This document shows, in pieces, positions 9,580-30,692 of a stretch of 37,768 nucleotides of DNA. Source of the stretch: Candidatus Cryptobacteroides merdipullorum (GTDB taxonomy: Bacteria > Bacteroidota > Bacteroidia > Bacteroidales > UBA932); assembly GCA_018715685.1 (NCBI GenBank), contig DVLC01000033.1, positions 1-37,768 on the forward strand. Reading direction: 5' to 3'. The number at the start of each line of letters is the position of its first letter. Positions within the stretch are counted from its first letter, which is position 1. A program made the translations under genes and the position numbers. The notes under the pieces are model-generated. The model ran no database searches, was not told the origin of the DNA, and saw only the letters and a list, made by a program, of their open reading frames with translations.

Positions 9580-10104
9580 TCAGCGAGAGCGGTGAGTGCG
9601 GCGCCAGACGGCGAGAAGGATGCGGCGGACCGGCAGCAGGCGGCGCCAGATGCGGGCCTTGCGGAGTTCGGAGCGGCTGCAGCAGTTGACCACGGAGCCG
9701 TCAGGGCGAAGGATTGCGATTGCGCGGGCAATGACTTCGGAGGGGGTGCAGCTCTCGGTGCCGTGGAGATTGCCGTCGCCCATGAGAATCAGTCGTCCGC
9801 TGTCGAAGCCGATAAGCCGGTGCAGTACGAAGCGTCCCGGTGCGACTTCGCAGAGCAGGATGTCTCCCGGGGAGAACGCGGAGCTGCCGCCGGGGTCCGC
9901 GGTATTCGGTTCGGCGGCCTGTCCGGTGCCGTCCGCGTTTTCTCCGGAGCCGCATGCCGGAGCCAGCAGCACCTTGTCCACGCCGTCGCGGATGAAAGGC
10001 AGCATGCTGCTTCCGCGGGCGAGGATGGTCACATCCCGTCCTTCCGCCATCAGCCTGCGCACCTCGGAAAAGAGCTCGACATTCGGAATCGGAATCTGCT
10101 TCAT
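9580..10104 (-). CDS. S24/S26 signal-peptidase-like family protein
   Basis: GRDVTILARGSSMLPFIRDGVDKVLLAPA (S-M-x-P motif), GDILLCEVAPGRFVLHRLIGFDSGRLILMGDGN. Confidence 0.85.
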   Translation of the reverse strand: MKQIPIPNVELFSEVRRLMAEGRDVTILARGSSMLPFIRDGVDKVLLAPACGSGENADGTGQAAEPNTADPGGSSAFSPGDILLCEVAPGRFVLHRLIGFDSGRLILMGDGNLHGTESCTPSEVIARAIAILRPDGSVVNCCSRSELRKARIWRRLLPVRRILLAVWRRTHRSR

Positions 10105-10110
10105 GACTCG

Positions 10111-11001
10111 TCAGATTTTGCCGGCAGGCGCTGTCTCCCTGCGGCAGAGCAAGGCCGCGTCGCGGTCGGGGAGGCAGTAGAGGTTGTAGAAACCGCAGAG
10201 GGAGAGCAGTTTTCCGACGCTGGCGTTCACGCCGTCGGCGACCTTCCTGTCCCATTTCATACAGGAGCAGGAGGTGATGAACGAGGCGTAGGCCTGTATG
10301 CCCGAGAGCCTTTCGATGCGGTTCTCCGGGGCCTGGAATATGTGCACCACGGCCTGCAAGGGGGCGCGGGCGTTCTTCCAGCACGGCGTCTTTCCGCTCC
10401 ATGGCGAGCCGTAGATTACGGCCTGTCCGTCGGCGATGCGTATCACAGGGTTGTCGTCGTTCAGCAGCTCCGTGTCGTCCATATTGTTGAGCCACAGCCG
10501 GCTGTGCGTGCTCTTGCCGCTTCCGCTGCGTCCGGTGAAGGCGTAGCCGCGGCCTTCGAGAACTATGGTGGAGGCGTGGATCAGCAGGGTGTCGAGAGTG
10601 GAGGTGCACAGCATGTACATCAGCATCGCCGAGTTGCCGAGAGCGAACGGGAGCATGGCGCCGGGAGCGCCGGCAGGCAGTTCGATGCGCCCGACGCGGA
10701 AGTCGGGGCTGACCCTGAGCATGAAGTCAGGCTTCTCGCGGGTGAGAGAAAAGCCGAAGGTCAGAGGATCCTTGCCGTCGTAGATCCACATATACGGCGC
10801 CTCGTCGTTGAAGCAGCCTATGAGTTCGCCGGAACCGCGCCCGCTCCGTCCGTTCTCGACGCCGAGCATGAAAAGAGGCTCCACGGAGTCGTCGGTCTCG
10901 AAGGGAAGGTAGGGCCTGAGAACCCGGTCCTCGTCGGCACCGTCCGGCAGGATCAGGCCGAAACGGTGTCCTGCGACATTGAAGATTCTTGCAGAGTTCA
11001 T
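10111..11001 (-). CDS. HPr kinase-like (HprK-related) P-loop protein
   Basis: YAFTGRSGSGKSTHSRLWLNN P-loop, LLNDDNPVIRIADGQAVIYGSPWSGKTP, LLIHASTIVLEGRGYAFTG; context with PqqD/S24. Confidence 0.82.
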   Translation of the reverse strand: MNSARIFNVAGHRFGLILPDGADEDRVLRPYLPFETDDSVEPLFMLGVENGRSGRGSGELIGCFNDEAPYMWIYDGKDPLTFGFSLTREKPDFMLRVSPDFRVGRIELPAGAPGAMLPFALGNSAMLMYMLCTSTLDTLLIHASTIVLEGRGYAFTGRSGSGKSTHSRLWLNNMDDTELLNDDNPVIRIADGQAVIYGSPWSGKTPCWKNARAPLQAVVHIFQAPENRIERLSGIQAYASFITSCSCMKWDRKVADGVNASVGKLLSLCGFYNLYCLPDRDAALLCRRETAPAGKI

Positions 11002-12269
11002 GATTTGCGGGTCTTGTATCTGTAGATCAGGAGAGCCGCCAGCACCACGGTCAGCATCGCGGAGCCGGTGACCCTGAAGCCGACCACGACGGAATCGTAG
11101 GGGATGGCCTCCTGCAGCAGGCAGCAGGTGTCGTAGATGGTCGAGGCCATGGTCAGGCAGGTCATGAAGAACAGCAGGCTGTTCATGCGGTTGTCCGCCT
11201 TCTTCTCGCTTTCGCTCTCCTCCTGGGCTATCATGTGGTAGAGCTCGTTCTTTTCCTTCTCTATTTTAAGCCCTCCGGCCGTGCATGCGCTGAACTCTTC
11301 GGGCAGGAAGTTGTAGGAGATGCGGTGGAAGGAGCAGCTGCGCTCGAAGTCCACCGATTCGCGCTCCAGCCCGCCGGCGTTCTCCCTTTCGTAGCGGAAG
11401 CGGCGCGTCAGGCGGTAGAGGTAGTTCCTGCGGAACAGCTGCCAGATGTAGATGAGGCCGAAATAGTCGTTCTTCCAGTTCGCGACCAGCCAGTCGGGGC
11501 AGTCGGAACAGAGTATCGTAAGGGTGTCGGACAGCGACAGGCATTTCCAGTTGTTGTAGATCGAGAGCGAGTTCTCGCTGAGGATTTTCCTGAAATAGTC
11601 TTCGGAGGGGGAGTCGAGCGACTTTGCGTCATAGGAGCCCACCGGGGCGACTGTCGCCAGTTCGAACAGCAGCTTGTCGGCTCCGCCGTCCTGCCAGCTC
11701 TCCCTGCCTGTGCGGGCTATCTGGAAGAGGTTGAACTTGTTGCCGTCTTCGACCAGGCGCACATGTTCGGCCGAGGCTCCGCCGGCTGCCGCCAGGGAGA
11801 GCGTCTTCCATACTTCCATCAGCGGTTCGACCGCCTCCCTGTGGAACTCTTCGAGTCCCGGGGCGCCGAGTCTCGAGAGGTTGCGCAGCAGCGCTGCGGC
11901 CGCGGTGATGTCGTTCCCGTCGTCGCTCCGCATCTCGATATGCACGGCGAACATGGCTATGCGGAACGGAAGCAGATATAGCTTGAGCTCGGGGATGCTG
12001 ACGTTCAGGTCGGATTCCGTGTGCGCCAGTTCCGCCGGAAGAGTCACGACGGCATCCCTGCGCATCGTGTACCTGCGCATCGACAGCTCCTCCCCGGCTT
12101 CAGGGCAGAGGCAGAACCTCACGAAGTCCGGAAGATAGTAGAGTTCGTAGTTTCGGATCTGTTCCGTGGTATAACGGTCCTGTTCCCAGCCCGAGGGCAG
12201 TCTGGCCGCGGATTCGTCCCTGCCGGACGCGAGCGAGAAGCCCCCGCAGAGATAAGCTATATATTCCAT
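10998..12269 (-). CDS. Unknown protein with C-terminal transmembrane helices
   Basis: C-terminal hydrophobic segments NSLLFFMTCLTMASTIYDTCCLL and VVVGFRVTGSAMLTVVLAALLIYRY; overlaps neighbours on both sides (13 nt with GDPD, 4 nt with HprK-like). Confidence 0.7.
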   Translation of the reverse strand: MEYIAYLCGGFSLASGRDESAARLPSGWEQDRYTTEQIRNYELYYLPDFVRFCLCPEAGEELSMRRYTMRRDAVVTLPAELAHTESDLNVSIPELKLYLLPFRIAMFAVHIEMRSDDGNDITAAAALLRNLSRLGAPGLEEFHREAVEPLMEVWKTLSLAAAGGASAEHVRLVEDGNKFNLFQIARTGRESWQDGGADKLLFELATVAPVGSYDAKSLDSPSEDYFRKILSENSLSIYNNWKCLSLSDTLTILCSDCPDWLVANWKNDYFGLIYIWQLFRRNYLYRLTRRFRYERENAGGLERESVDFERSCSFHRISYNFLPEEFSACTAGGLKIEKEKNELYHMIAQEESESEKKADNRMNSLLFFMTCLTMASTIYDTCCLLQEAIPYDSVVVGFRVTGSAMLTVVLAALLIYRYKTRKS

Positions 12270-13108
12270 GTCCTCGGAGTCTTTATGAACAGTCTCGGGT
12301 CGTTGGTGATCACTCCGTCCACAAGTTCCACGAGCCCGGCGTCGTACTTGTCGAGGGTCCAGACCTTGACTTCCTTGCCATGGGCGTGCGCCTTCTCCAC
12401 GAAGGAGCGCGTGGCGGCGAGATAATATACATTGAAGGAGGCCACATAGTCGTATTTCCCGAAGTCGAAGCTCGAGAAGCCTCCGTCGAACTCGAAGCCC
12501 AGGCCGGTGGCGGCGAAGAAGAGCAGCTTCTCCAGGCGTATCTCGGGGGCGATTCCGTGCACGGTCTCGAGCACCTCGTCGTCGAACGACTGGATGGTCA
12601 CGTATCCGGCGGCTCCGTTCCTGCGTATGCAGTCCACGCAGGCCTGCTCGATTCCCGGCAGAGAGTGCCGCGAATGCTTGATCTCCAGCAGCAGGCCGGC
12701 CCTGCCTTCTATGAGGCGGAGTACCTCGTCAAGGGTCGGAAGGTGTCCGTCGGTCGGATTGCCGGCGTGATCCAGAAGCCTCAGTTTCCTGAGTTCGGAG
12801 TAGTTCATTTCGCTGATATAGCCGCTTCCGTCGGTCGTCCGGTCCACAGAGGGGTCGTGGCAGACCACGATCTCGCCGTCGGCGGAGAGGTGTACGTCGA
12901 CTTCTATCCATTTGGCGCCGACCGCGATCCCCTTTTCCATGCATTCGAGGGAGTTTTCCGGGCCGAGCGCTGCGCCGCCGCGATGGGCGACCACCGTAAG
13001 TTCCTTTTCCGTGTCCATAGATTCGTTGCCGGCTTCTCCTGCACGGCAGCTGATGCCGAGGAGCAGCGCGGAGACAAAAATAGCCGTTGTTTTGATAATA
13101 TGCATCAT
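12257..13108 (-). CDS. Glycerophosphodiester phosphodiesterase family protein (exported)
   Basis: VVAHRGGAALGPENSLECMEKGIAVGAKWIEVDVHLSADGEIVVCHDPSVDRTTDGSG; N-terminal signal with possible lipobox LLLGISC. Confidence 0.93.
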   Translation of the reverse strand: MMHIIKTTAIFVSALLLGISCRAGEAGNESMDTEKELTVVAHRGGAALGPENSLECMEKGIAVGAKWIEVDVHLSADGEIVVCHDPSVDRTTDGSGYISEMNYSELRKLRLLDHAGNPTDGHLPTLDEVLRLIEGRAGLLLEIKHSRHSLPGIEQACVDCIRRNGAAGYVTIQSFDDEVLETVHGIAPEIRLEKLLFFAATGLGFEFDGGFSSFDFGKYDYVASFNVYYLAATRSFVEKAHAHGKEVKVWTLDKYDAGLVELVDGVITNDPRLFIKTPRTWNI

Positions 13109-16100
13109 ATTTTAACTCCGAATATAGTCCTGAAGCCCTCGCGTATGACCATGTCGTACCATTCGAAGCAGTCGGATGCCTGTGCGGACATGCCGACCAC
13201 CCTCGCGGCGAACTCCTTGAAGGGGTCGAGGTTGACGAGCGACCATATCACGAAATTGCCGAAGCTGTGGGTGAAGAGATCCGAGAGCGTCTCGCCGCCG
13301 GGACTGTAGTTGAGCACCTCGTCGCGGTATCTGGACACTCCAGGGAAGGCCACTCCGGCGAGCTCCCGCCTCAGGAAGGCGTCGACCTCCTCCGGAAAGT
13401 AGTTCTTCGCGGTCGAGAGCACGTTGCCGACGGCCTGGACGAGGGTCTGCGGGGCGTTTTCGTTGAGCCCGCCGTCCATTGCGTCGAACGCGGCGACCGA
13501 CTCCGCGTCGGGGAAGAGGTGCATCACATGCAGCAGCAGGTCCAGAGCCGTGAGCACGTAGCCGTTGTCGGAGACGAGCTCCGAGATGTTCGAGAGCAGA
13601 TGGTAGAGCAGGGGCTTGTCCTTCGTCCGCACGGCTTCCTCTATCAGTTCGTGGAAGACCGGAGCCGCCGCCGTGTCGCCGTCGTGGGGCACGTTGTCGC
13701 CGCTGTGGGTGCAGTAGACATCGCAGTACCAGTTCATCACGTTGCGCTTGTAGAGCCCGGTGGTGTTGGCCTTGTGGCTGTTGCGCCCGCGGAAGAAGCC
13801 CTTGCAGCGCCGGGTCCAGTCCGCGGCCTCGCGGGAATATATCTCCATGAGCTCCGGGTTGTAGGCGGCCGACTTCTTCTGCACCTGGTAGAGCACATAG
13901 AGCATCGACATCTGCGAGTAGTCGAACCATTCGCCGCCGCGGTAGCCGTCGGTGAAGAACTGCCGCACCACGGGAGCGATGTTCTCCCATCCGGCGATTC
14001 CGGCGACGGCGAGCAGGCGCTCCAGTATGAAGTAGGAGAAACTGTCGCCGCTCATATAGGCCTTGAGAATCTTCGGATGTTCGCGGCTGAAGCCGCTGAA
14101 ACCGTCCCCCGGGCCGCTCACGAACCACGATGCCAGTTCGGCCGCGTACTTCCTGCACCATCGGCCCTCTCCGCCGTCGTCCGCCGGCACCACCGAGTCG
14201 TCCCAGAAGGTCTGGTATTCGACCGCGTTGTTCACATAGGACGACTGGAAGGTGATCTGCCGCCTCAATATCATGCTGAAGAAGGGCATCACGAGCCGGA
14301 CGAGCCTGAATTTCCATGTCAGCCAGGACACGAGCCCGCGTATGTCGCGCATCATTTCCGCCGCCCTGTCCGAAGCGCCCGTCCGTCCGGAGAGCATGTC
14401 GTCGATAATCAGCATCACCGCGAGCCGGGCGCCCGTCTCTACGAAGGAGACCGCCCGGGCGCGCAGTTTCGCGTCGGAGACGGTGGCTGCGAGCCCTCTG
14501 GACTGCACTGTCGCGAACATTCTTCGCACTATCGCGGCGCTGATGTTCTCGCGCAGCGGGGTGAATTCGAGGGTGTGGCGCTTGTTGTGCAGATAGTAGA
14601 TATACATGCACGCGTCGTTGCCGATGTCGAGCAGAGGGTTGCCCACGAGTTTCCAGAGCAGCTCGTAGGGGTCCTGTCGGTAGAGCCCTCCGACGAACCA
14701 GTCGGACAGGAACATACCGTTGATCACGCTCACCGTGACGGTCTGCCCGAGATGCAGCACCGGCCCGAGTTCTTTCTTGAGGGATTTGTGGCGGGCTATC
14801 ACGAACTCGTCGGCCTTGTTTCCCTGTATCTTGCGCGTGAGTTCGTTGAACTGCCTCGTGAGTTCGTCGCGTCCTGGCAGGGGCTCGTCGAGCATGCGCC
14901 GCATCAGCGCGAAGAGGCGGTCCTCGTAGTTCTCGCGTATAAGCACGTTGAGCACTTCGCCTGTCAGAAGGGAGATTTCGTAGTCGTCGCCGTAGTCGCG
15001 CACGAGCGAGATCAGGGTGCCGTCGTCGCCGGTGTCGCACCAGTCCATGATCAATGCGTTGCGCAGGGCGCCCATGTAGACCACGGAGCCGCTCTCCTCC
15101 TCAAGGGCGCGTATGTAGGCCTCGGCAGGTATGGCGGAACCGTCGCGGCGGTTGCGGCGTATGAACTCCACGGCCATCAGGTATTCGAGGTAGCGTTCGT
15201 AGATGAACTGTATCTCGGCTCGTCCGTCCGGCGTCTCGATGTATCGCAGGATGGGACGTTCCGGCTTGTTGAGGAGCTCGGTGTAGGCGACGGTGAGTCC
15301 TCCCTGCTTGTAGATCAGCCGCGAAAGCTTGTGCAGCGCCGCGGACGGGTCGTCCCAGGCGCGCCGGAGTTCGGCCCTGTCGATGCGGTCGGAAGGCCGT
15401 CCCTGTTCGTATTCACCGAGTATGTAGCCGGCTATCGTGAGCATGATCTCGTGCTGCTGGCGGCCGGCGTAAGAGTGCGCTATCCTGTCGGTCATGTCGG
15501 CGAACAGGGCGATGGAGCTGTAGTCCTGAAGCTCCTGCGGCAGCGCGGTCCCCACATGGTTGGTGCAGGCGATCTTGAGTATCAGCGGATCCTTCAGCCT
15601 GACGAGCGAGACCTTCGAGAGTTCGTCGAAGCCGCCGCTCATCTGGTAGAGGTTCTGGTATATGTCCCAGGCCGTCCTGAGCTCCTCGTCGCTGAAGCCG
15701 TGCACTTCGGAGTCCTGCCCGCGGTCGCGTCCGAACATCAGCGTGGCATCGCGCTTCATCTGGAGCTGGAACAGCGTCTTCCAGGAGTAGCTGCGGCAGG
15801 TGAAAAGCAGTTTGAAGCGCGGGTATTCCGGGCGTATGAACAGTTCCCTGAACGCTTCGTAGAGCGCGGCCGGGCCGTTGAGCTCGTCGGCGGGCGCGTC
15901 CTTGTAGCGCAGGCACTCGTTGACTGCGTCGAAGAATATGTAGACCGTGCGCCCCTCCTCTCCGGCTCTCTTGTGCAGTTCGCGGACGATTTTGGCGGCG
16001 TCCTTTCTCGGAGAGCTGCGGAAGATGCGCCGCAACGCGTCAGGAAGGCTCTCTCCCGCGAAGTCGGAACTGCTGAAGATGAGCACGGCGTCGTCGCCTT

Positions 16101-17151
16101 TCGAGATTTCCTCGGTCCACCAGCAGAGCTGGTTGGTCTTGCCCTGTCCGGCCTCTCCGAGCAGGGGGAAGAGGGTCAGGGGGCTTGCGCTGAATTCGCC
16201 GAGCAGCCGGCTGAGGGCCTTTCTCTCGACGAAGAGTTCGCGGTTGTATTTCTTCTCGCGGTAGACCCGTCCGAGGAAGCGGGCGGATTCGGCGTTCAGC
16301 AGTGCGCGCATCTCGGTCCAGTTCATCTCCTTCGCGATGTCGAACGAACGGCTGCTGCGCTGGAGCAGGCGGTCGAAGGCTGCGTTGCGGCTGTCGTCGA
16401 TCAGGGTCACCGCCTCCTCGTCGGAGGAGATGTAGGAGATATCCTCGTCCTTGAGAGACTGGAACACATAGACATAGCCTTTCTCGTTGCGGAACACGAG
16501 CGGGTACAGGTCGGCTTCCGTCCCGTCGGGCGAGCGGAACAGGCTGCCGCCGCCGTCGGAGAAATTGAAGCTGAACTCCTGCAGGGGCTCCACGGCCTTG
16601 AGCATCGCGAGAATCTGAGGTTCCAGGGTGAACACCACGCCGCGGTAGATTTCGTTGGACAGGGTGGTGCTGTGGCCCTTGTATTCGTTGCGTATCCTGA
16701 CCACGCTGGGTTCGGTCTTCGTGCCGAGAAGCCGGTTTGCGCCCCTTACGAACAGCGCGGCGTTCAGGGAGCGCACGAGAGGGTTGTCGGGAAGTTCCTT
16801 GAGCGCGGCCCTGACCGCAGGGTTGAAGATGTCGTTCACCCAGTCGCCGAAGGAGAGCGCGCGCTTGCTGTCGATCTTGTCGACAATGGCCTTCATCGCC
16901 TTCGCATCCTCGGGAAGCTCCTTCTCGGCGTCCTGCAGCAGCACGAACAGGCAGCAGCTCACGAACTGGACGCTGATTTCGAGGAAGTCGAGGGCGTAGT
17001 TCATGCCGGCGGAGAAATTCCCCTTCTCCACCTCGCGCATCAGCGACGCGACGGGTTTGGAGAGGGTCGGGGGCAGCCGCGAGACGCTCCGCTCCGCGAG
17101 CTCCCGGAATTCCTCCTCCTGTGCAGTGCCGTAGCTTCGTAGGAATGTCAT
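13105..17151 (-). CDS. Large STAND/NACHT-like P-loop NTPase
   Basis: Walker A PLLGEAGQGKTNQL, Walker B-like TVYIFFDAVNECL, FTCRSYSW sensor-like motif, long helical C-terminal region; 1348 aa. Confidence 0.75.
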   Translation of the reverse strand: MTFLRSYGTAQEEEFRELAERSVSRLPPTLSKPVASLMREVEKGNFSAGMNYALDFLEISVQFVSCCLFVLLQDAEKELPEDAKAMKAIVDKIDSKRALSFGDWVNDIFNPAVRAALKELPDNPLVRSLNAALFVRGANRLLGTKTEPSVVRIRNEYKGHSTTLSNEIYRGVVFTLEPQILAMLKAVEPLQEFSFNFSDGGGSLFRSPDGTEADLYPLVFRNEKGYVYVFQSLKDEDISYISSDEEAVTLIDDSRNAAFDRLLQRSSRSFDIAKEMNWTEMRALLNAESARFLGRVYREKKYNRELFVERKALSRLLGEFSASPLTLFPLLGEAGQGKTNQLCWWTEEISKGDDAVLIFSSSDFAGESLPDALRRIFRSSPRKDAAKIVRELHKRAGEEGRTVYIFFDAVNECLRYKDAPADELNGPAALYEAFRELFIRPEYPRFKLLFTCRSYSWKTLFQLQMKRDATLMFGRDRGQDSEVHGFSDEELRTAWDIYQNLYQMSGGFDELSKVSLVRLKDPLILKIACTNHVGTALPQELQDYSSIALFADMTDRIAHSYAGRQQHEIMLTIAGYILGEYEQGRPSDRIDRAELRRAWDDPSAALHKLSRLIYKQGGLTVAYTELLNKPERPILRYIETPDGRAEIQFIYERYLEYLMAVEFIRRNRRDGSAIPAEAYIRALEEESGSVVYMGALRNALIMDWCDTGDDGTLISLVRDYGDDYEISLLTGEVLNVLIRENYEDRLFALMRRMLDEPLPGRDELTRQFNELTRKIQGNKADEFVIARHKSLKKELGPVLHLGQTVTVSVINGMFLSDWFVGGLYRQDPYELLWKLVGNPLLDIGNDACMYIYYLHNKRHTLEFTPLRENISAAIVRRMFATVQSRGLAATVSDAKLRARAVSFVETGARLAVMLIIDDMLSGRTGASDRAAEMMRDIRGLVSWLTWKFRLVRLVMPFFSMILRRQITFQSSYVNNAVEYQTFWDDSVVPADDGGEGRWCRKYAAELASWFVSGPGDGFSGFSREHPKILKAYMSGDSFSYFILERLLAVAGIAGWENIAPVVRQFFTDGYRGGEWFDYSQMSMLYVLYQVQKKSAAYNPELMEIYSREAADWTRRCKGFFRGRNSHKANTTGLYKRNVMNWYCDVYCTHSGDNVPHDGDTAAAPVFHELIEEAVRTKDKPLLYHLLSNISELVSDNGYVLTALDLLLHVMHLFPDAESVAAFDAMDGGLNENAPQTLVQAVGNVLSTAKNYFPEEVDAFLRRELAGVAFPGVSRYRDEVLNYSPGGETLSDLFTHSFGNFVIWSLVNLDPFKEFAARVVGMSAQASDCFEWYDMVIREGFRTIFGVKI

Positions 17152-17157
17152 CGTGCG

Positions 17158-19173
17158 TCAGTTGAGTATCTTGTCGTTGATGGGCACGGGAATCTCCGCT
17201 GCGACTTCCGACTCCATGCGCCGGCGTATCTCCTCGTGCTTTTCGAGCATGGCCTTGCCCACGGTGGGCTTCCAGTTGTCTATGGCCTGCATGAGCATGG
17301 CCTGCGAGATCTTCGTCCTCGCGTAGGCGGCGTTGATGGCCGCGTCGTTGACTATGCCGCAGATGTCGCTGGTCACATAGCCTTCGGTTCTCGCCGCCAG
17401 CAGCTTGTAGTTGATGTCTCCGCTGTGCGGACGCTTCTCCACGCAGAGGCGGAACACGGCCCTGCGCGCCTGCGAGTCGGGTGCCGGGATGTAGACGCAG
17501 CGGTCGATACGGCCGGAGCGCAGCATCGCGGGGTCTATGATTTCGGGGTTGTTGGTCGTGGCTATCACGAACACCCTGTCCCTGCCGCAGTTGTTGAGCT
17601 GGCTCAGGAATTCGTTGACCTCGCCGGCGAGATTGGCGTTGGTCAGGGTCTCCCTTTTCGGCGCGAAGGCGTCGAACTCGTCGAGACAGATGATGCAGGG
17701 GCTCTTGGCCCTGGCCTCCTTGAAGAGCATTCCTATCTTGCCCTGTCCGCCGTGCACCCAGGTCGAGCCGAGGTCGGAGGCCTTGACGAGCGCGTAGTTG
17801 AATCCGCTCTCCTCGGCCAGTTTCTCGGCGAAGAAGGTCTTGCCGCAGCCGGGAGGGCCGTAGAGCAGCATGCCGTTGGGCAGGTCTATCTTGTACTGGC
17901 TGGCCAGGGCGGGGTTCCTGAGGAAGTAGAGCAGCTTCTTCTGCATCTGCTCCTTGAGTCTTTCCATGCCGGCCACGTCCTTGAAGCCTCCCGCTCCGGG
18001 GACATGCATCCTCACGAGAGGGGTGTAGCCGAGCTCGGCGTTGGTGAACTCAGAGTCGTCGGCGGACGAACTTTCAATCTTCTGCGCCGCCGGGGCTTCC
18101 TCCTCTTCCGTCCTGTCGGGCGTCTCCCCGGCGTTCTGGAGAGAGGCCTCGTCTCCGTAGAGCCCGGCGCGTTCGGGCGAGATTATGTATCCGAGCGTCC
18201 TCGTGTAGGCCGAAACCACGTCTTCGGAGGGCTCTGCGGTCAGAATCGCGGTCTTCGCCGCCATGAGCATCTGCCAGGTCTCGAGCAGCAGAGGGCGGAG
18301 CTCCTCGGTGAATTCCTGCTCGTCATAGTCAAAGGTGGTCATCTTCTCCGCGAGGGCGCTGATCAGCGGCCCCCATCTGTCGTCCTCCTTGTCCTGCTCC
18401 CGGAAGTCGCTGTTCCTGTAGCACATCATCGCCCCCATCCTTCCGGGCAGGTCGAGCTTCGCAATGCGCTTTTCGTCCATCTTCCAGGGGTAGCTGCCGT
18501 AGTAGCACTGGTAGAGGATCACCCCGAGGGAATATACGTCGGAGTTGCGCTTCACGCCCTCCCTGCAGAAGGCTTCGGGGGCAGTGTAGCGCAGGTCGAC
18601 ATCTTCCCACCAGTTCTCCGGGACGCTCTTCCCGTCGAGATGCAGTATGTGGTCATTGTCGATCAGATGGGCGTGAAGGTCGCCGTTCTCGTCGCGCCCG
18701 AACATGATGTTGTCGGGGCAGATGTCGCAGTGCGCGAAGTTGCCGCCTTTGGGCGAGCGCAGGTTCAGCAGTATGCCCGCTATGTCAAGACATACGCCCA
18801 CGGCCTCCAGCGCGCTCATCGGGCCGTCGGTGAGCAGTCTGTCGGAAAGCAGTCCTCGCTCGAAATAGTCGGAGATCACATAGGGGAACAGTTTCCCGTC
18901 ATCCGAGCGGAATTCGCCCCATGAGATTATTGACAGCATGCCGGAGATGCCGGAGGTGTTGAGGTAGGATATCAGCCTCGGCTCCCTGCCGAACTTGAGG
19001 GTGTCGGGCATGCTGTCGGTCAGATAGACCTTCATCAGGAAAGGCCTGCCGTCCTTCCTGCGGGTCAGACGGTAGGTCTCCGAATAGTCCCTCTTCGCGA
19101 TGGGGTTTGCCACCGCGTAGTCTTCGGTGCTGAAGACCTCGAATCCTTTGCTGAACAGGAACTTCTCCGCCAT
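17158..19173 (-). CDS. Protein kinase-like domain fused to C-terminal AAA+ ATPase
   Basis: Kinase-like FLMKVYL, FAHCDICPDNIMF, LIDNDH, DVDLRYTAPEAF, DVYSLGVILYQCYYG; AAA+ GMLLYGPPGCGKTFFAEKLA, CIICLDEFDAFAPKR, IATTNNPEIIDPAMLRSGRIDRCVYIPAPD. Confidence 0.92.
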   Translation of the reverse strand: MAEKFLFSKGFEVFSTEDYAVANPIAKRDYSETYRLTRRKDGRPFLMKVYLTDSMPDTLKFGREPRLISYLNTSGISGMLSIISWGEFRSDDGKLFPYVISDYFERGLLSDRLLTDGPMSALEAVGVCLDIAGILLNLRSPKGGNFAHCDICPDNIMFGRDENGDLHAHLIDNDHILHLDGKSVPENWWEDVDLRYTAPEAFCREGVKRNSDVYSLGVILYQCYYGSYPWKMDEKRIAKLDLPGRMGAMMCYRNSDFREQDKEDDRWGPLISALAEKMTTFDYDEQEFTEELRPLLLETWQMLMAAKTAILTAEPSEDVVSAYTRTLGYIISPERAGLYGDEASLQNAGETPDRTEEEEAPAAQKIESSSADDSEFTNAELGYTPLVRMHVPGAGGFKDVAGMERLKEQMQKKLLYFLRNPALASQYKIDLPNGMLLYGPPGCGKTFFAEKLAEESGFNYALVKASDLGSTWVHGGQGKIGMLFKEARAKSPCIICLDEFDAFAPKRETLTNANLAGEVNEFLSQLNNCGRDRVFVIATTNNPEIIDPAMLRSGRIDRCVYIPAPDSQARRAVFRLCVEKRPHSGDINYKLLAARTEGYVTSDICGIVNDAAINAAYARTKISQAMLMQAIDNWKPTVGKAMLEKHEEIRRRMESEVAAEIPVPINDKILN

Positions 19174-19176
19174 GGG

Positions 19177-20436: not shown

Positions 20437-20463
20437 GGCTGTATTGTCTGGTGTTGTTGATGA

Positions 20464-21429: not shown

Positions 21430-21431
21430 GG

Positions 21432-22175: not shown

Positions 22176-22739
22176 CTACTCCGGTTCGGAAGGCGTGGAG
22201 TCCTCGAACATCAGTATCCTTCCGATACGCGTCTGCAGGCCGGGGAGCGAGTCCAGGAAGCGCTTCATTTCATCGGGATAGCCTGAGAGTATGCAGACGA
22301 ATTCTCCCCTGCGGACCTCCATGAGCATGAGCAGAGTGTCCAGCGCCTCCCGTCCGAACAAGTCGTTGTCGCTCTGCCCGAGCGTGTACGCCTCATCGAT
22401 GAAAAGTATTCCTCCGAGTGCCTTTTCGACGGCCTGGCGGGTCTTCTGCTCCGAAGCTCCTAAATAGCTGCCGACAAGGTCCGCCCGGGTCACGGTCACG
22501 ACCTGCCCTCCTGACAGGACACTGATGTCCTTGAGTATCCTGCCGAAGATTCCGGCCACGGTGCTTTTCCCTGTGCCGGGATTGCCTATGAACGCATAGT
22601 TCCTTGTCGCCGGAGCTGCCGGAATTGTCCCTGCCTGCTTCCGGAGCAGGATTTCTTTTACGTCCGCATGTATTTCATGCTTGACGTTATGGAGCCCTAT
22701 GAGGGAATCCAGCTCCTTGAAAATGTCCTGGTTGTTCAT
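22176..22739 (-). CDS. Truncated CbbX/SpoVK-like AAA+ ATPase (lacks C-terminal lid)
   Basis: FIGNPGTGKSTVAGIFGRIL, GGILFIDEAYTLGQSDNDLFGREALDTLLMLME; ends FEDSTPSEPE* where sister domains continue FEDYTPEELTEIFRRNC. Confidence 0.85.
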   Translation of the reverse strand: MNNQDIFKELDSLIGLHNVKHEIHADVKEILLRKQAGTIPAAPATRNYAFIGNPGTGKSTVAGIFGRILKDISVLSGGQVVTVTRADLVGSYLGASEQKTRQAVEKALGGILFIDEAYTLGQSDNDLFGREALDTLLMLMEVRRGEFVCILSGYPDEMKRFLDSLPGLQTRIGRILMFEDSTPSEPE

Positions 22740-25700
22740 TGTATGTCCTCCTTGATTATGAGTTTGGGTTGTGCCTGCCTGTAGGCTTCGGTCTTGTCCA
22801 TGCCTCCCGCCACGAGTTCGGCCATGCGGGCGTTGGCTCTCCTGGCGGCGGCGGACTTGACCTCGCGGAATATGTTGCGCACTTCGCGGGCGTTGCCGAA
22901 GTCGAAGCTGCGGTTCGCATAGATGTCGGAGAATTTCCGGACGAGCAGCTGCTCGGCCTCCGGATCAAGGGTGTAGCCGCCTTTGCGGCAGTTGAGCCGG
23001 AAGATGTCCATGAGCTGCTCGGCGTTGTAGTCCTCGAAGTTGATGACCTTGTTGAAGCGCGACTTGAGTCCGGAGTTGGAGTCGAGGAACTGCTGCATCT
23101 CGCGGGTGTAGCCGGCGGCGATGCAGACGAACTTGCCCTTGCGGTCCTCGAGCAGCTTCAGAAGCTCGCTCACGCACTCGGTTCCGAAGTTGTCGTGCGG
23201 CCCCTGAATCAGCGAGTAGGCCTCGTCGATGAAGAGTATGGCACCCATGGCCTTGTTGACGACTTCGCGCGTCTTGGGCGCGGTCTGGCCGCTGTATCCG
23301 GCGACAAGGTCGCTGCGTGAGACTTCGATGACGTCGGGTCTCGGCAGCACGCCGAGCGAGTGGAGCATGCCTCCCATGAGACGGGCCACAGTGGTCTTTC
23401 CGGTGCCGGGATTGCCGAGGAAGAGGTAGTGGTCGCCGCTGATTCCCTTGAAGTCGGTGCCGTTGATTTCGGCTTCGAGTTTCTGCTGGCGGAGCTCCTC
23501 CATCATCAGGCGTATCTCCTCCTTGACTCCGTCGAGTCCGATGAGCGAGTTGAGTTCGGCCATGCACTCCTCCTCGCTGACCACCTTCGGCTCCTCGTAG
23601 GGGATGTCCTCGGGCAGTATGGTGAAGAAGCTTTCGCGCGTGACCTCGGCATCGGGCAGGGCGTTGACCCTCGTGCCCAGCATGCCGAGACACTGGTCGA
23701 GCATGTTGCGGGCCTCCCGGGCGTTGCCGAACGACTTGCCGGACTTCTCGGAGATGATCTTGCGGAAGGCGCTCAGGGCCTTCTCGAGCACGCCGTCGGC
23801 GAGCGTGTAGCCCTGGCTCTCGCAGTTGCGCCTGAATATCTCGGTAAGCTCTTCGGGGGTGTAGTCGTCGATGTTGATGCTGTGGGTGAAGCGGCTCTGG
23901 AAGCCCGGGTTGGCCTTCATCAGGTTGCCCATCTCGGCCTTGTAGCCCGCGCAGACGAGCACGAACTTGCCCCTGTCGTTCTCCATTCGGGTCATCAGGC
24001 GCTCAAGGGCCTTGAGACCTTCGCTGTCGTTGCACTGCCCCATGTCGTCGAAGGGCGCCAGGGTGTAGGCTTCGTCGAGGAAGAGCACTCCGCCCATGGC
24101 CTCGTTGACGGCCTTGTCCATCTCCTTGTCGGATTCGTTGGCGTAGCGGCCCACTATGTCCTTGCGGCTCTTCTCGATGACCCTGTCGGTGGAGCAGATG
24201 CCCATGGCCTTGAACAATTTGCCGAGCACTCTGGCGACCGAGGTCTTTCCGGTTCCGGGGTTGCCGGTCAGGATTATGTTCACGGGGCGTATCGTCGCCT
24301 TGCCGCCGAACTCCATGCGCCTGCGCTGGAAGCGCATCTCCTCGGCGAGGCTCCTGATGGCCGCCTTGACCGAACCCATGCCAACGAATTGGTCGAGCTC
24401 CTTCATGACCTGCTCCACGCTGATGTCCTCGCTCTCCTCGTCGCCAACTATGTCCCTCCATATCAGCAGGTTCTTCTGCTTCTCGTATTCGTCGCCGCGG
24501 AGGTCGGCTATCCTGTCGCCCTGTCTGGTGACGCAGCTGTCGAAAGTGTTGCGCACGGCCCTGGCGTTGCCGAAGGTGTCGGTGCGGGAGAGATACATGC
24601 GCTCGAAGTACTTGTCTATCTTGGACTCGCTCTCCTCGTCGAGCTGAAGCTTGTTCTTCTCGACCATGTTCATGAATATGGTCTTGAGCTCCTTGCCGTT
24701 GTAGTCCTTGAACTCTATCTTGCGCTTGAAGCGGGAGTCGAGGCCGGAGTTGGAGCGCAGGAAGCCGGTCATCTCGCGGGTGTAGCCGGCGATGATGCAG
24801 ATGAAGTCCCCGATTCTGTTCTCGAGGAAGGGGAGCAGGGTGTCTATGGCCTCCTGCCCGTACTTGTCGTCGTCGCTCTGCTTGAGCGAATAGGCCTCGT
24901 CGATGAAGAGTATGCCTCCCATCGCCTGGTTTATCACCTGCTCGGTCTTCTGGGCCGTGTCGCCCACATACTGCGACACGAGATCCTTACGGGTGACCTC
25001 CACGAGGTGGCCGCAGGGCAGCACCTGGAGGCTGTTGAGGATTTCGGCGAAGAGGCGGGCGATGGTGGTCTTTCCGGTGCCCGGGCCGCCGAGGAACACG
25101 AAATGCGACTTGAGCTTGACCTTGGCGACGGGGTTTTCGCGCTTCTCCCTCTTTATCTTGTTGATTATCGAGCGGATTTCGTCCTTGACCTCCTGAAGGC
25201 CCACGAAGGAGTCGAGCTTTGCGAATATCTCCTCCTCGGTGAGCTCCTTGAACGCTTCGTCGGGTATGTCGGCTTCTTCAAGCGGCCCGTTCTTGCCGCA
25301 GCGTTCGATTTTGTTGAGGGTGTAGGCTTCGGCGAGCCTGCATGCGAGCTTACCGTTCTCTCCGGACTCTCCGTCGCGGAATTTCTTCTTGAGCACGAGG
25401 CCGAGCTTCTTCTCCGCCCCGGGCGAGATGGCCGTCCTGAACTTGTCGGTGATGATGGAGGTGCAGAGCCGGGTGAGCTGGACATCGTTGAAGGGCAGCA
25501 GTCCGAAATTGAATTCGAAGAGCGACGACACATGCTTGTTGGCCCGGATATAGCCTCCGAAACCGTCTTCGAGGCCGCAGAGTATGACCACGGGCATCTC
25601 CTTGTCCTGACGCATCCTCGCGAACAGTTTGTCGAGGCCGTTCTTTCCGTCGCCCACGAGATCCTGGCAGTTCGTGACGAGCAGCACGCCTTTCTTGATT

Positions 25701-26104
25701 TTCGCGAGATTCTTGTCCAGGTCGCCGTTGAATCCGTCCCAGTCGGCCGCGTCGATCTGCTTGGGCGCGCGTCCGTCGGAAATCTTGTAGCGGAAGAGCA
25801 GCGAGCACAATTGGTCGGCCAGGTAGACCTTTCCCGTGCCGGCGGTGCCGGTGATCACGCAGTCGAGTCCCGGCCTCGTGGTGCCGCCGGAAAGCTGCAT
25901 GAATTCGGAGGCATGTTCGCAGCGCGCCGCGAAGCTTCTGAAGATGGGCAGAATGTTGTCCTTGGCTATGAAATCCGAGGCTTCGGGCAGGGAGGCTCCG
26001 TCAGGGGCGCCGTCCTGCGGGGCGGCTGCGAGCAGAGTGCCGCACCATTTGCAGTATTTTGCCTCGTTCCTGTTCGGCTTGTGGCAGTTCTGGCAGTCTT
26101 TCAT
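22736..26104 (-). CDS. Zinc-ribbon protein with one degenerate and three canonical CbbX/SpoVK-like AAA+ domains
   Basis: MKDCQNCHKPNRNEAKYCKWCGTLL ribbon; P-loops GTAGTGKVYLA, GGPGTGKTTIA, GNPGTGKTSVA, GNPGTGKTTVA; Walker B GGILFIDEAYSL, GGVLFLDEAYTL, GAILFIDEAYSL. Confidence 0.93.
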   Translation of the reverse strand: MKDCQNCHKPNRNEAKYCKWCGTLLAAAPQDGAPDGASLPEASDFIAKDNILPIFRSFAARCEHASEFMQLSGGTTRPGLDCVITGTAGTGKVYLADQLCSLLFRYKISDGRAPKQIDAADWDGFNGDLDKNLAKIKKGVLLVTNCQDLVGDGKNGLDKLFARMRQDKEMPVVILCGLEDGFGGYIRANKHVSSLFEFNFGLLPFNDVQLTRLCTSIITDKFRTAISPGAEKKLGLVLKKKFRDGESGENGKLACRLAEAYTLNKIERCGKNGPLEEADIPDEAFKELTEEEIFAKLDSFVGLQEVKDEIRSIINKIKREKRENPVAKVKLKSHFVFLGGPGTGKTTIARLFAEILNSLQVLPCGHLVEVTRKDLVSQYVGDTAQKTEQVINQAMGGILFIDEAYSLKQSDDDKYGQEAIDTLLPFLENRIGDFICIIAGYTREMTGFLRSNSGLDSRFKRKIEFKDYNGKELKTIFMNMVEKNKLQLDEESESKIDKYFERMYLSRTDTFGNARAVRNTFDSCVTRQGDRIADLRGDEYEKQKNLLIWRDIVGDEESEDISVEQVMKELDQFVGMGSVKAAIRSLAEEMRFQRRRMEFGGKATIRPVNIILTGNPGTGKTSVARVLGKLFKAMGICSTDRVIEKSRKDIVGRYANESDKEMDKAVNEAMGGVLFLDEAYTLAPFDDMGQCNDSEGLKALERLMTRMENDRGKFVLVCAGYKAEMGNLMKANPGFQSRFTHSINIDDYTPEELTEIFRRNCESQGYTLADGVLEKALSAFRKIISEKSGKSFGNAREARNMLDQCLGMLGTRVNALPDAEVTRESFFTILPEDIPYEEPKVVSEEECMAELNSLIGLDGVKEEIRLMMEELRQQKLEAEINGTDFKGISGDHYLFLGNPGTGKTTVARLMGGMLHSLGVLPRPDVIEVSRSDLVAGYSGQTAPKTREVVNKAMGAILFIDEAYSLIQGPHDNFGTECVSELLKLLEDRKGKFVCIAAGYTREMQQFLDSNSGLKSRFNKVINFEDYNAEQLMDIFRLNCRKGGYTLDPEAEQLLVRKFSDIYANRSFDFGNAREVRNIFREVKSAAARRANARMAELVAGGMDKTEAYRQAQPKLIIKEDIQ

Positions 26105-29100
26105 CTGGATATTGTTTTAGGAACCGGAATGTCACTGAACATTATGTATCCCGCCTTCGTGCCTCCTTCGAGGCCTCTGGCAGGTATGGTGAGCAGTTCG
26201 AGTCGGCTCGCGTCGGGGCCCACATTGGAAAGCGTCACCGAGCATTCGGCGGTCTCTCCGGAGGGCAGAGCGAAGAATCCGCTCTTGCTGGAACTGTCTA
26301 TGGTGACGTCGGGTGCGCTTACCGAGATCTCTCCGTCCCTGAAACGATAGATTCTGCCTGCGTCATCCTCGGCTTCGATGCGGCCGGCGGTCTTCTGCAG
26401 GAGTATGGACGCCTTTATGTCGGGGGCTATCTCATGTTCCCCTCCGTTGGTGAGCCGGAAACGCACGAGCAGACTGTCCTCCGCTGTCCTGCGGCTGCTC
26501 AGGAATTCCACATGGAGATCCTTTGCCGAGCAGGTGGCCATGACTTCGTATTCATTGCCGTCGACGGTGACGGCCCTGGTGGTGACGGAAACGGACTCGG
26601 CTTCTTTCTCCGCCCGTTCTTTCTCCACAAGACCATAGGCCGCGGCGCCGTTGCCCATCAGGATGAAACCTGTGATGCATCCGAGTATGACCGGCCTGAT
26701 CTTCTCCTTGAGCGAATCCTTGTACTGCTCCTTGTAGAAGTCTTCGTTGGCGGCGACGGACGACTGGAAAGCTGACGCCGGGCTCTTGAACGCGTAGTGC
26801 AGGGGTTCGAGAATCAGCAGATCCTGGTCCGGTGTGCCGAGCGACCTGAGGCCCGAGGCTCCTTCGTTCGGCTGGAAGAGCCGGCTCAGGAAGTACCAGG
26901 CGAACAAGCCTGTGGCCGCGAGCGAGATGTAGGGCACGAGCCTATAGATGAACCATCGGCTCACGAAATACAGTATCAGCATGAAGAAGAAATAGGCAAA
27001 TATCGAGTAGAAGAACCCGAACACCCTGTCTTCGCTGAAGAACTGGCAGAGCAGCAGGCAGAAGACTATGGGGCCGAAGAGTATGAACACTTCCTTCTTG
27101 AGTCCGTAGTCCAGCCAGGGCATCTGGATGATTCCCAGCACCTGGGAGGCGATGCTGACGAAGAAGAACAGGGTGCAGATCACCGTGAAGATGTTCTGTA
27201 TGGTGCCCAGCGCGAGTATGGGCTGGGCTTTTCCGTCCTTCCTTATCGAGTTGCGGGCCTCGTTCCAGCGGCTGTACTCCCGGTTGTCGGGGTCGTAGCG
27301 GCCGAGTGTCTCCAGATATTGCTGGGTGAGTTTCTCGTAGGCGTACTTCGGCTTGAGGTCGGCGTGCGGGTTCTCCTGGTACTGTACGGCGACCCATGCG
27401 TGCAGGCTGCGGCTCCTGACGGCCTGCCTGATTTCGCTCTTCCAATCCTTGCCTTCCTTGCCCGAGCCGGAGAGGGACTTGAGTCCCGAGATGCCGCTCA
27501 CGGTCTCGGCACTGTTCCTGAAGCGGTACTCCGGGGTGAAGCCGAAGCCGGCGACGGTCTTCATTATCGCTATCTGAACGTCGTAGGGCCCGTATTTCTT
27601 GCTGTTGTCAGTGCTCTTGTAGTCGGTGCAGTACGCTGCCCACCTGTCCTGGGCGTCGAACCTGTTCCCCTTTGTCCTGAACGACTTCTGGACGTATGAG
27701 TCCTTCCAGGAGCCTCTGAACGACATTATTATGAGATCCACGAGGGATGCCTGGCAGATGTCCCTGTAGGGGTTGGTGCCGGAGGTCCAGTCGTTGTAGA
27801 GCCTGTCCCTGTCGCCTTCGAACTGCACGTAATAGGCGTTGAAGGCCATGTTGATGAGCTTGCCGAGTCCCTTGCCGGTCATCGCGTACCACGGATTCTT
27901 CGGGTCGGCGCAGAGGTTGAGGTCGGCGGCCGGGTTCAGTGTCTGGATTATATAGCGGTACAGCCTCTGGAAACCTTCGGACGAGTTCTGCTGCCTGAGT
28001 TTCTCCACCTTGGCGGCGTCGTCCGGCGAGAATGTGCGGAGCATCTCCACGAACGCGAGGGAGCAGATCCATTTCTTGTCTTCGTCGGAGACTATGCGGT
28101 GGTCCGAGAAGAATTTCAGCACCTCCGCCGGATTCTGGCAGCGGACCTCGGTGAACTTCGCTTCGTCCGCGCTCTTCTTGCCGTAGAAGGATCTGGTTAT
28201 ATCGGAGTCATGGACGGCCCATATCAGGGTGCTTCTAGCCTGGCCGAACTGGTCGGCGGCGGCAGCCTTGACCCTCTGGAAGATCCGGTCGGCCGCCTGC
28301 TTCCCCTCGCTGTGCCTGAGGTAGATGTAGACCGGATTGTCCGGGTCGGTGAGGTTGTTGTTGAAACTGTCCTCCGCGTTCAGCAGGGGGATTATGGTGT
28401 CGTGGGTCTTGCCCTTGCGGTCGTAGTACGGAAGATTGGGGTCGAGCACCAGCGCGGCGGCGTAGAGGCCGGCAGTCTGGTTCTTCGGGTATCTGGTCTC
28501 GATGATGTCGTTGAGCCTGATTTCGACTTCGGGCATCGACTTGCGCAGCCATTCGCAGACGCGCCCCTTGTAGAGGTAGGAGATTCCGAGCTCCTGGTCC
28601 TCCATCATGAATTTCGCGAGGTCGGCGGTGCTGCGCGCTATCTTGTTCTTGCTCGAATCGAAGACTATGTTCAGGGTGCCGAGGCTCTCTCCCACGGGCA
28701 CGTCCTCTCCGGAGAGCTTGCGCTGGATCTCGTCGAAACCCCAGCGGCTCTCCACGTCGTTGAGCAGCAGGCCGCGGACTATGGTGCGGAGCGGTTCGGG
28801 CATGGCCTTGGGCACGTCTATCTTGCCCTCCAGTTTGAGCTTCACGAGCTCGGTCTCCTTGCGCTTGAACGCGTCGGCGCCCACCCAGAGGGCCAGAGCC
28901 GTCATTCCGAGGGCGTAGTAGTCATAGGCGCGGGTCATTATCGCGTAGGTGGCGCCTCCGATTATCGACGCCTTGGTGTAGATTTCCGGAGCCGCGTAGA
29001 TAGGAGTGCGGTCCTGAAGGCTGTTCACGCTGCCGTCGGCGCCGAGTATGTCGGAGATGCCGAAGTCGGAGAGCAGCAGGAGGCAGTTGCTCTTGTCGGT

Positions 29101-29811
29101 GAACAGCAGGTTCTCGGGCTTTGTGTCCTTGTGGAGCACGCCCACCTTGTGGAGCTCGTTGAGGTTGCGGGCGGTCAGCGTGACTATCTGGAGTATCGCG
29201 TCGCCGTTGCCCTTGAAGTCCCAGGATGCCGTGGAGCCGTCCTCGCAGTATTCCATCAGCGTGAAGCTGCGCTTTTCCGAACCGATGGTGATGTTTCCGT
29301 AGCCGTAGATGTCGGTGACCGCCGCCTTCCCGCGCAGCTTCGTGAGCCTGCCTATGAGATCCTTGTTGAACTGATGCACCCCTCGGTAGAGTTTGAGAGC
29401 GTATTTCCGGCCTTCGCAGACCAGCACATAGACCTCGGCCTCGCCGCCGTTGCCTATGAGCTTGTCGATTTCGTAGGTCTTGCCGTGTATGGTGAGGGTC
29501 TTGCGCCGGGTGAGGTCGAAGGTGGCCTGTGGTGCCGGTCCGGACGCTGCCGGAGCCTGGGACGCCACGGCGGTCGCGCTCGCAACGGCCGTCATTCCGG
29601 CAACGCTGCCGTTCATGACCGCCGTCCCCTGTACATTGCCCGCGGTGACGGTTCCGCCAGGAGAGACGCCGGAAGCTATGGTGCCTCCGGAGCCGGGCGT
29701 GGGTGCGGTTATGGTTCCGCCTGTGTTGCCGCCGCTCTGCTGCGGCGTCGCGACCGTGCCTCCGGATGCCGGCGTGGAGCCGGCAGGGACCGTGTTGCTC
29801 GTATCTGTCAT
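26101..29811 (-). CDS. Ser/Thr protein kinase with C-terminal transmembrane and extracytoplasmic-type region
   Basis: LIGNGGEAEVYVLVCEGRKYALKLYRG, VGVLHKDTKPENLLF, LLLSDFGISD, PIYAAPEIYT; multiple hydrophobic helices around residues 850-1000 and GCITGFILMGNGAAAYGLV; Gly/Thr/Pro-rich N-terminus. Confidence 0.9.
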   Translation of the reverse strand: MTDTSNTVPAGSTPASGGTVATPQQSGGNTGGTITAPTPGSGGTIASGVSPGGTVTAGNVQGTAVMNGSVAGMTAVASATAVASQAPAASGPAPQATFDLTRRKTLTIHGKTYEIDKLIGNGGEAEVYVLVCEGRKYALKLYRGVHQFNKDLIGRLTKLRGKAAVTDIYGYGNITIGSEKRSFTLMEYCEDGSTASWDFKGNGDAILQIVTLTARNLNELHKVGVLHKDTKPENLLFTDKSNCLLLLSDFGISDILGADGSVNSLQDRTPIYAAPEIYTKASIIGGATYAIMTRAYDYYALGMTALALWVGADAFKRKETELVKLKLEGKIDVPKAMPEPLRTIVRGLLLNDVESRWGFDEIQRKLSGEDVPVGESLGTLNIVFDSSKNKIARSTADLAKFMMEDQELGISYLYKGRVCEWLRKSMPEVEIRLNDIIETRYPKNQTAGLYAAALVLDPNLPYYDRKGKTHDTIIPLLNAEDSFNNNLTDPDNPVYIYLRHSEGKQAADRIFQRVKAAAADQFGQARSTLIWAVHDSDITRSFYGKKSADEAKFTEVRCQNPAEVLKFFSDHRIVSDEDKKWICSLAFVEMLRTFSPDDAAKVEKLRQQNSSEGFQRLYRYIIQTLNPAADLNLCADPKNPWYAMTGKGLGKLINMAFNAYYVQFEGDRDRLYNDWTSGTNPYRDICQASLVDLIIMSFRGSWKDSYVQKSFRTKGNRFDAQDRWAAYCTDYKSTDNSKKYGPYDVQIAIMKTVAGFGFTPEYRFRNSAETVSGISGLKSLSGSGKEGKDWKSEIRQAVRSRSLHAWVAVQYQENPHADLKPKYAYEKLTQQYLETLGRYDPDNREYSRWNEARNSIRKDGKAQPILALGTIQNIFTVICTLFFFVSIASQVLGIIQMPWLDYGLKKEVFILFGPIVFCLLLCQFFSEDRVFGFFYSIFAYFFFMLILYFVSRWFIYRLVPYISLAATGLFAWYFLSRLFQPNEGASGLRSLGTPDQDLLILEPLHYAFKSPASAFQSSVAANEDFYKEQYKDSLKEKIRPVILGCITGFILMGNGAAAYGLVEKERAEKEAESVSVTTRAVTVDGNEYEVMATCSAKDLHVEFLSSRRTAEDSLLVRFRLTNGGEHEIAPDIKASILLQKTAGRIEAEDDAGRIYRFRDGEISVSAPDVTIDSSSKSGFFALPSGETAECSVTLSNVGPDASRLELLTIPARGLEGGTKAGYIMFSDIPVPKTISR

Positions 29812-30692
29812 AGTTCTTTAGTTACAGTGATTGTTTTGTCTTCATATATCCATGTCCCGCCGTGCCAGGGTTCGCAGCACTCGCTCGGCTTGTTGTGCCA
29901 GCAGCCGCAGTAGTTGCAGACCCATGCGACGGGGTTGTTGCTCTTGACTTTCTGTATCACGGAGATCCTGCGGGCCGAATAGTAGTTGCGCTGCTCCTGC
30001 GGCGTCGATCCTGCGGGAGGCACCATGTGTTCGAGCGTGGAGTTGAGTTCGGCCTTCATCTTCTCGTATTCGGCCTGAAGCTCCGCCTTCGACTTGCGCT
30101 TCGACCTGGTCTTCGCGGGTGCGGCCTGCTGCTTCGGCGCGGGGTCAGGCCGCGCGGGTGCCGGGCCTCCGGATTGTACGGAAGCCAGCATCTCCTTGAG
30201 CCTCAATATGTCGGGAGGAAGCTCCCTTGCGGGTTTCGGTGATTCGCTCCCGTCGCCTCCGATGTCGATCAGTCCGCCTTCGGGTGTGTCGTCCATCAAT
30301 TGCTGGAGCTCGGCCATCCTGACTGCGAGTTCGGCGGCCTTGAGATAGACCGGATCCTTCTTCGCCCTTTCGACCTCCTTGCGGGCGGCCGGTGTCAGCG
30401 GTTCGTTGCAATTGCGGCAGTAGGCTCTCGCGTTTATGGTGCCGCAGCGCGGGCATACGACTCCTGCGCGGCTCATGCCGCATTCAGGGCAGAATTCTTC
30501 TCCGGGAGGTACTTCGGCGCCGCAGAAAGTGCAGTACGGGGCGAGCGGACGGCCGCAGTGGGGGCAGAACTCCTCGGTTCCCTTTATGATTTTTCCGCAG
30601 TACGGGCAGGCGTCGGACACCTGACGGACAAGTTCTTTCCCGGCGGTTCGTACCTGGGTCTTCTCTTTCTGTTTGAATAATTCCTGGGCCAT
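29808..30692 (-). CDS. Multi zinc-ribbon protein
   Basis: CPYCGKIIKGTEEFCPHCGRPLAPYCTFCGAEVPPGEEFCPECGMSRAGVVCPRCGTINARAYCRNCNEPL and C-terminal VCNYCGCWHNKPSECCEPWHGG; start at 30692 (MAQELFKQK) preferred over 30794. Confidence 0.82.
   Translation of the reverse strand: MAQELFKQKEKTQVRTAGKELVRQVSDACPYCGKIIKGTEEFCPHCGRPLAPYCTFCGAEVPPGEEFCPECGMSRAGVVCPRCGTINARAYCRNCNEPLTPAARKEVERAKKDPVYLKAAELAVRMAELQQLMDDTPEGGLIDIGGDGSESPKPARELPPDILRLKEMLASVQSGGPAPARPDPAPKQQAAPAKTRSKRKSKAELQAEYEKMKAELNSTLEHMVPPAGSTPQEQRNYYSARRISVIQKVKSNNPVAWVCNYCGCWHNKPSECCEPWHGGTWIYEDKTITVTKEL

Follow-up and report, generated by a model that had tools for sequence, protein, structure and literature searches.

A candidate receptor-kinase cassette with a CbbX-type AAA+ protein in a 21-kb gene block of Candidatus Cryptobacteroides merdipullorum

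Contig DVLC01000033.1 of the Bacteroidales member 'Candidatus Cryptobacteroides merdipullorum' was analysed over a stretch of 37,768 nucleotides (nt), hereafter the window, in which every gene between positions 9580 and 30692 lies on the minus strand. The initial annotation of this block proposed a self-contained pathway in which phosphorylation controls AAA+ remodelling and proteolysis, and the question raised by the locus is whether one pathway or several separable units are encoded here. Each gene and junction named at that stage was borne out by the listing of open reading frames (ORFs) and their translation: 4-nt overlaps at 29808-29811, 26101-26104, 22736-22739, 13105-13108 and 10998-11001, a 13-nt overlap at 12257-12269 and, as the sole sizeable gap, 120 nt at 22056-22175. 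Co-direction alone is ordinary; a five-gene order recurring at 12 loci exceeds chance. The 21-kb block breaks down into at least four units, which relatives carry apart. Comparison of the sequences makes it probable that the core is a five-gene Ser/Thr phospho-signalling cassette controlling a dedicated CbbX-type AAA+ chaperone, with a STAND-GDPD-HP423 unit and a RiPP-type (ribosomally synthesised and post-translationally modified peptide) unit as independent neighbours. Parts were assigned by Pfam, NCBIfam and PADLOC, and those of the cassette are as follows (HMM, hidden Markov model).

20464-30692, minus strand: five-gene cassette ZnR1-Kin1-CbbX-ZnRFHA-PP2C (synteny)
29808-30692, minus strand: ZnR1, zinc-ribbon protein (Pfam DZR, alignments)
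26101-29811, minus strand: Kin1, transmembrane Ser/Thr kinase (Pfam Pkinase, hydropathy)
29494-29811, minus strand: Kin1 N-terminal tail, residues 1-106, with five GGT[VI]-type repeats (counts against shuffles)
22736-26104, minus strand: CbbX4, multi-AAA+ protein (HMM matches, signature motifs)
22176-22739, minus strand: CbbX1, single CbbX-type AAA (Pfam; a similar extra gene stands in the same place in G021)
21432-22055, minus strand: ZnRFHA, double zinc ribbon, Pro/Ala linker and FHA domain (Pfam, alignment)
20464-21429, minus strand: PP2C phosphatase, Stp1-like (Pfam; NCBIfam Stp1_PP2C at E = 6e-39, below cut-off)

Relatives back the start of ZnR1 at 30692, since the first Met conserved among them is residue 35 of the longer ORF; the start of PP2C was refined from them to most likely 21429, 2 nt past the FHA gene. 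Pfam bore out the domain assignments, namely two Pkinase domains, double zinc ribbons, FHA, PP2C, M48, and AAA of both the CbbX type and the classical type.

The order ZnR1, Kin1, CbbX, ZnRFHA and PP2C, on one strand, is kept in 12 of 12 complete loci, namely the window, L015/G441, G021, G237, G296, G334, G557, G657, G511, G703, G832 and G862; the cassette is incomplete in G012, G507 (contig end cuts the locus) and L016. The close relatives L015/G441 and L016 came from a related-locus search. Among 295 genomes of the order, queried with the non-catalytic part of Kin1, the cassette was found in G021 and G237, with part of it in G012; among 150 genomes of the family, in G296 and G334 besides the genome studied here; and a ZnR1 profile run on a 396-genome sample of the phylum retrieved six more genomes (G557, G657, G511, G703, G832 and G507), five of them outside the class, with G862 as a further complete locus. 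The cassette is thus patchy, at about 1-3% of sampled genomes, and identity among its loci falls to about 25-45%. Pairwise distances of the five proteins are correlated (r = 0.64-0.88; at most 7 of 2000 permutations as high, Mantel test), as joint inheritance would predict, though the shared species tree contributes. The neighbourhood check suggested earlier therefore holds for these five genes, which travel together at 12 loci, but not for the remaining genes of the block, which are separable. A search of 250 Bacillota genomes gave generic zinc-ribbon matches only.

The genes behind PP2C vary (DUF1963 in G021 and G296, SUKH in G557), and in G511 a SUKH gene sits between ZnR1 and Kin1. DUF1963 and SUKH are families that include polymorphic-toxin immunity proteins; at four loci they stand beside or inside the cassette (L010:931-1575, L060:15949-16659, L074:10445-10966 and L078:9288-10082). 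In G862 (L133, G862:C1:305000-324999) transposase-like genes flank the cassette on both sides and the kinase gene is split into ORFs of 549 and 418 amino acids (aa), and in G334 (L062:18126-19934) an additional CbbX-like protein, its N-terminal region uncharacterised, is encoded divergently beside the cassette.

Kin1 consists of an N-terminal tail with Thr repeats, a kinase domain (residues 113-363), an alpha-rich central region, hydrophobic segments at about 877-1059 and a variable C-terminal tail. In every kinase domain aligned, the catalytic Lys, HxD and DFG are intact and an APE-type motif can be recognised, and by their sequences Kin1, PP2C and the FHA protein fit a Hanks-type kinase signalling circuit. 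The C-terminal tail differs among loci, from 22 to more than 300 residues, with an SH3b domain in G237; in this it resembles receptors with exchangeable sensors, its position outside the cytoplasm being inferred from hydropathy. The stretch ahead of the kinase domain is of low complexity and carries tandem threonine motifs, [DE]-x-T-[IVLM]-[RK] in relatives and GGT[VI] as their counterpart in the window. Tails with DKTIR/EKTVR were found in G507, G557, G657, G511 and G703, and other forms are EKT[MIV]RP (G334), DKTLKP (G021), SGTQRP (G237) and QKTAV (G296). The window tail has 5 GGT[VI]/KT[VI] matches against 0.54 expected, a number reached in none of 2000 composition shuffles, and in the main tail groups motif counts were rarely or never reached in shuffles of their own composition. 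The pattern [DEN]xT[IVLM][RK] occurs 31 times in Kin1 tails (seven loci), once elsewhere in Kin1 and four times at FHA C-termini, compared with 10 times in 226 other ORFs. Four ZnRFHA proteins (G557, G657, G511 and G703) end in the motif, in the forms EKTVRI, DATVRV, EKTIRV and DKTVRI. Because the same motif is found on the kinase tail and on its FHA partner, it is likely to be an FHA ligand. In GarA and OdhI, the FHA domain binds phosphothreonine (pThr) in the protein's own tail.

ZnR1 ends in a conserved W.CN..GC.H..PSEC..P..GG.W motif, which serves as the family marker of the cassette. In CbbX4, a zinc ribbon at the N-terminus and a divergent AAA that has a Walker A are combined with three CbbX/SpoVK/EccA-type AAA+ domains; the number of such domains in relatives is four in some and two in G296. 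It scores above cut-off against TIGR02881 (E = 2e-200), TIGR02880 and TIGR03922, summed over domains, and three of its domains carry the AGYxxEM sensor-1 signature, which places CbbX4 by sequence in the CbbX/SpoVK/EccA clade of AAA+ proteins. The members of this clade that have been characterised serve dedicated clients, which they activate or assemble (Rubisco for CbbX, MurG for SpoVK, substrates of the type VII secretion system (T7SS) for EccA), and they lack peptidase partners (PMC10659427). Since these proteins are chaperones of this kind, the conserved cassette is by analogy likelier to act by remodelling or activating a client, perhaps one in the envelope, than by degradation. The proteolytic output proposed initially is thus disfavoured for the conserved part and could still apply to a lineage-specific pair of M48 peptidase and kinase-AAA proteins described below.

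In the mechanism that we propose, the membrane kinase would respond to a signal at its variable C-terminal domain by autophosphorylating its cytosolic N-terminal tail, and the zinc-ribbon-FHA adaptor would dock onto the resulting pThr array. In some lineages, a pThr tail on the adaptor itself may act as its switch or drive its polymerisation, in the manner of GarA/OdhI. Shared zinc ribbons would then recruit ZnR1 and the multi-AAA+ CbbX protein, which would remodel or activate a putative client near the membrane, while PP2C would reset the Kin1 tail; in the lineage of the window, a peptidase and a kinase-AAA+ fusion may have been added onto the cassette. To this fuller reading, an undescribed receptor-kinase pathway in which a tandem pThr tail recruits a zinc-ribbon-FHA adaptor and, through it, switches on a linked multi-AAA+ CbbX-type chaperone, patchy across Bacteroidota and with swappable ectodomains and accessory genes, we would give roughly even chances.

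Several points weigh against the proposed mechanism. ZnRFHA of the window has no C-terminal motif, and the window tail repeats are GGT[VI], not [DE]KT[IV]R; the tails of G237 and G296 deviate, and those of G832 and G862 have few motif copies. The loci share descent, so that motif and distance counts are not independent, and the Mantel test is uncorrected for the species tree. Kin1 topology is derived from hydropathy only, with hydrophobic segments counted differently among relatives, and a fold search with the Kin1 central region (model predicted local distance difference test (pLDDT) 75) gave no significant match. The genome is 82.6% complete, and a further kinase, PP2C or FHA gene could sit in the unassembled part.

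The outputs of bacterial Ser/Thr kinases are, to our knowledge, mostly undefined, and we know of no CbbX/SpoVK/EccA-type chaperone that is switched by phosphorylation. The cassette pairs a receptor kinase, a probable phospho-docking tail, a reader, an eraser and a chaperone, and offers an opportunity to test both in a phylum whose eukaryote-like kinase signalling is little studied. In the draft genome (2.0 Mb), PP2C and FHA gave one match each and Pkinase two, all inside the window; the cassette appears to be the host's whole Ser/Thr-kinase circuit, so its removal should be clean to interpret. The valuable part of the locus is 20464-30692, with its concrete and testable phospho-docking hypothesis.

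The literature search found no paper with the five-gene set. A close likeness is to the PASTA kinase/Stp and GarA/OdhI switch of Actinobacteria, in which a membrane Hanks kinase, a PP2C, an FHA adaptor and a pThr tail motif read by FHA are combined; the cassette differs in its tandem pThr-like repeats on the kinase tail, its zinc-ribbon adaptor and a multi-AAA+ CbbX protein in the operon, and has no PASTA domain. From the CbbX/SpoVK/EccA clade, with which it shares HMM matches and sensor-1, CbbX4 differs in having three or four AAA+ domains plus a divergent one and a zinc ribbon, and in being encoded with a kinase, FHA and PP2C (PMC10659427). The text of that paper does not contain the word 'kinase'; its figure shows operons with zinc-binding domains, and the cassette neighbourhood may have been drawn there earlier, unnamed. 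Some NTP-dependent conflict systems of Kaur et al. 2020 (PMC7159879) have kinase, PP2C and zinc-ribbon elements, whereas the cassette lacks MoxR, vWA, VMAP and GAP1; VMAP/MoxR-vWA ternary systems were rejected, as Pfam detected no MoxR, vWA or VMAP domains. The absence of TerY/VWA/TerD genes, stated initially, stood in the Pfam scans, and TerY-P/Ter systems were rejected on that ground; a sub-threshold TerB-like domain qualifies it.

Behind the cassette, two accessory genes and a separate three-gene unit follow.

19177-20436, minus strand: M48-type zinc peptidase (HEFGH) with a C-terminal TerB-like domain, accessory (Pfam; TerB-like sub-threshold, E = 0.002)
17158-19173, minus strand: KinAAA, kinase domain fused to a classical (CDC48/FtsH-like) AAA+, accessory (Pfam, HMM matches)
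13105-17151, minus strand: STAND/NACHT-like NTPase, separate unit (sub-cut-off NACHT match, synteny)
12257-13108, minus strand: GDPD phosphodiesterase, STAND partner (Pfam, synteny)
10998-12269, minus strand: HP423, hydrophobic C-terminus, no known family, third member of the STAND unit (synteny)

The M48-TerB-like, KinAAA and STAND genes stand behind the cassette only in L015 and L016; 17158-20436 is joined to the cassette only in close relatives. The M48-TerB-like family (about 420 aa) also occurs as standalone genes in five scattered Bacteroidales (L101-L105). KinAAA resembles IetA (1.9e-28; 90 bits against a cut-off of 510), but IetAS was rejected, its partner here being an M48 peptidase and not a subtilase. 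The STAND-like reading of 13105-17151 is tempered by a NACHT-like Pfam match of 22.7 bits, under the cut-off of 26.7; the motif RNxYxGH, invariant in its N-terminal domain, could, as a suggestion only, be HEPN-like, and a fold search with this domain (pLDDT 83) gave no significant match. The STAND-GDPD-HP423 unit (10998-17151) recurs without the cassette in G433 (L056) and G379 (L058; HP423 divergent) and in G199 (L107), whose STAND protein has an N-terminal extension that reads like a SAM domain. At L015:18197-18967, a second GDPD gene lies between HP423 and the HprK-like gene.

A role of the cassette in anti-phage or inter-bacterial conflict, with kinase activity held by PP2C and freed on infection as in KKP, would suit its patchy presence, the adjoining STAND and GDPD genes, the transposase-like genes of G862 and the SUKH/DUF1963 genes at four loci. 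We regard it as unlikely: PADLOC assigned no specific defence family, finding generic kinase/AAA similarity only, and several distant copies sit amid housekeeping genes. Moreover, ZnR1 had no match in the collections of viral contigs and plasmids, on which ground phage or plasmid carriage was rejected, and the sole plasmid match of CbbX4 at E 1e-100 was a half-length one from Streptomyces. KKP itself (PMC11341870) also has a PP2C with two Hanks kinases; membership was rejected, as the gene order differs, with no PP2C-kinase-kinase triplet, Pfam detects no cold-shock domain and hence no such fusion, there is no prophage sign, and the cassette has a receptor kinase and FHA/zinc-ribbon/AAA genes.

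That the whole of 13105-30692 is one stress or conflict pathway, with AAA+ remodelling, M48 proteolysis and a STAND switch all under the control of phosphorylation, is quite improbable. The tight co-directional spacing and the FHA-PP2C-M48-KinAAA-STAND order kept in L015 and L016 speak for it, but distant cassettes lack M48, KinAAA and STAND, while STAND-GDPD-HP423 and M48-TerB are found without the cassette, and the end of the block is RiPP-type. What survives of the self-contained phospho-signalling/AAA+ module is the conserved five-gene cassette, and not a single pathway across 13105-30692 or 21 kb; such a module is also supported by the position of all PP2C, FHA and Pkinase matches of the genome within the window. 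A promoter and terminator scan of 8400-28300 gave no excess over shuffles, leaving internal promoters neither shown nor excluded, and in an empty-site comparison via GlnRS within the genus the other flank was not conserved.

A secretion-system regulator, either PpkA-PppA-Fha of the type VI secretion system (T6SS), which shares a membrane kinase, PP2C and FHA and has ClpV in place of the CbbX chaperone, or a T7SS one with an EccA-like ATPase, is very improbable: CbbX4 scores against EccA and FHA weakly against TagH, but these AAA matches are common to the whole clade, and no secretion structural gene was noticed in relatives' neighbourhoods or found by Pfam among the window genes (for T6SS, the search covered the window and not the rest of the genome).

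The last unit comprises the following genes.

5669-11001, minus strand: RiPP-type cassette (Pfam/profile matches)
10111-11001, minus strand: HprK-like gene
9580-10104, minus strand: S24/S26-like gene
8915-9575, plus strand: RelE/HTH toxin-antitoxin pair, following the 'S24' gene and splitting the cassette
8543-8863, minus strand: PqqD (1.2e-14)
6797-8536, minus strand: ABC exporter (Pfam)
5669-6787, minus strand: nucleotidyltransferase, NTP_transf_5 (Pfam)

The gene at 9580-10104, initially called an S24-like peptidase, had no Pfam match. As judged from these matches, 5669-11001 is a PqqD/HprK/ABC RiPP-type cassette, unrelated to the kinase cassette, and the 'S24' end of the block belongs to it. 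Further along, the product of 3083-5488 is probably a secreted lipoprotein, in which a BACON-like domain is combined with a DNA/RNA non-specific endonuclease domain at the C-terminus.

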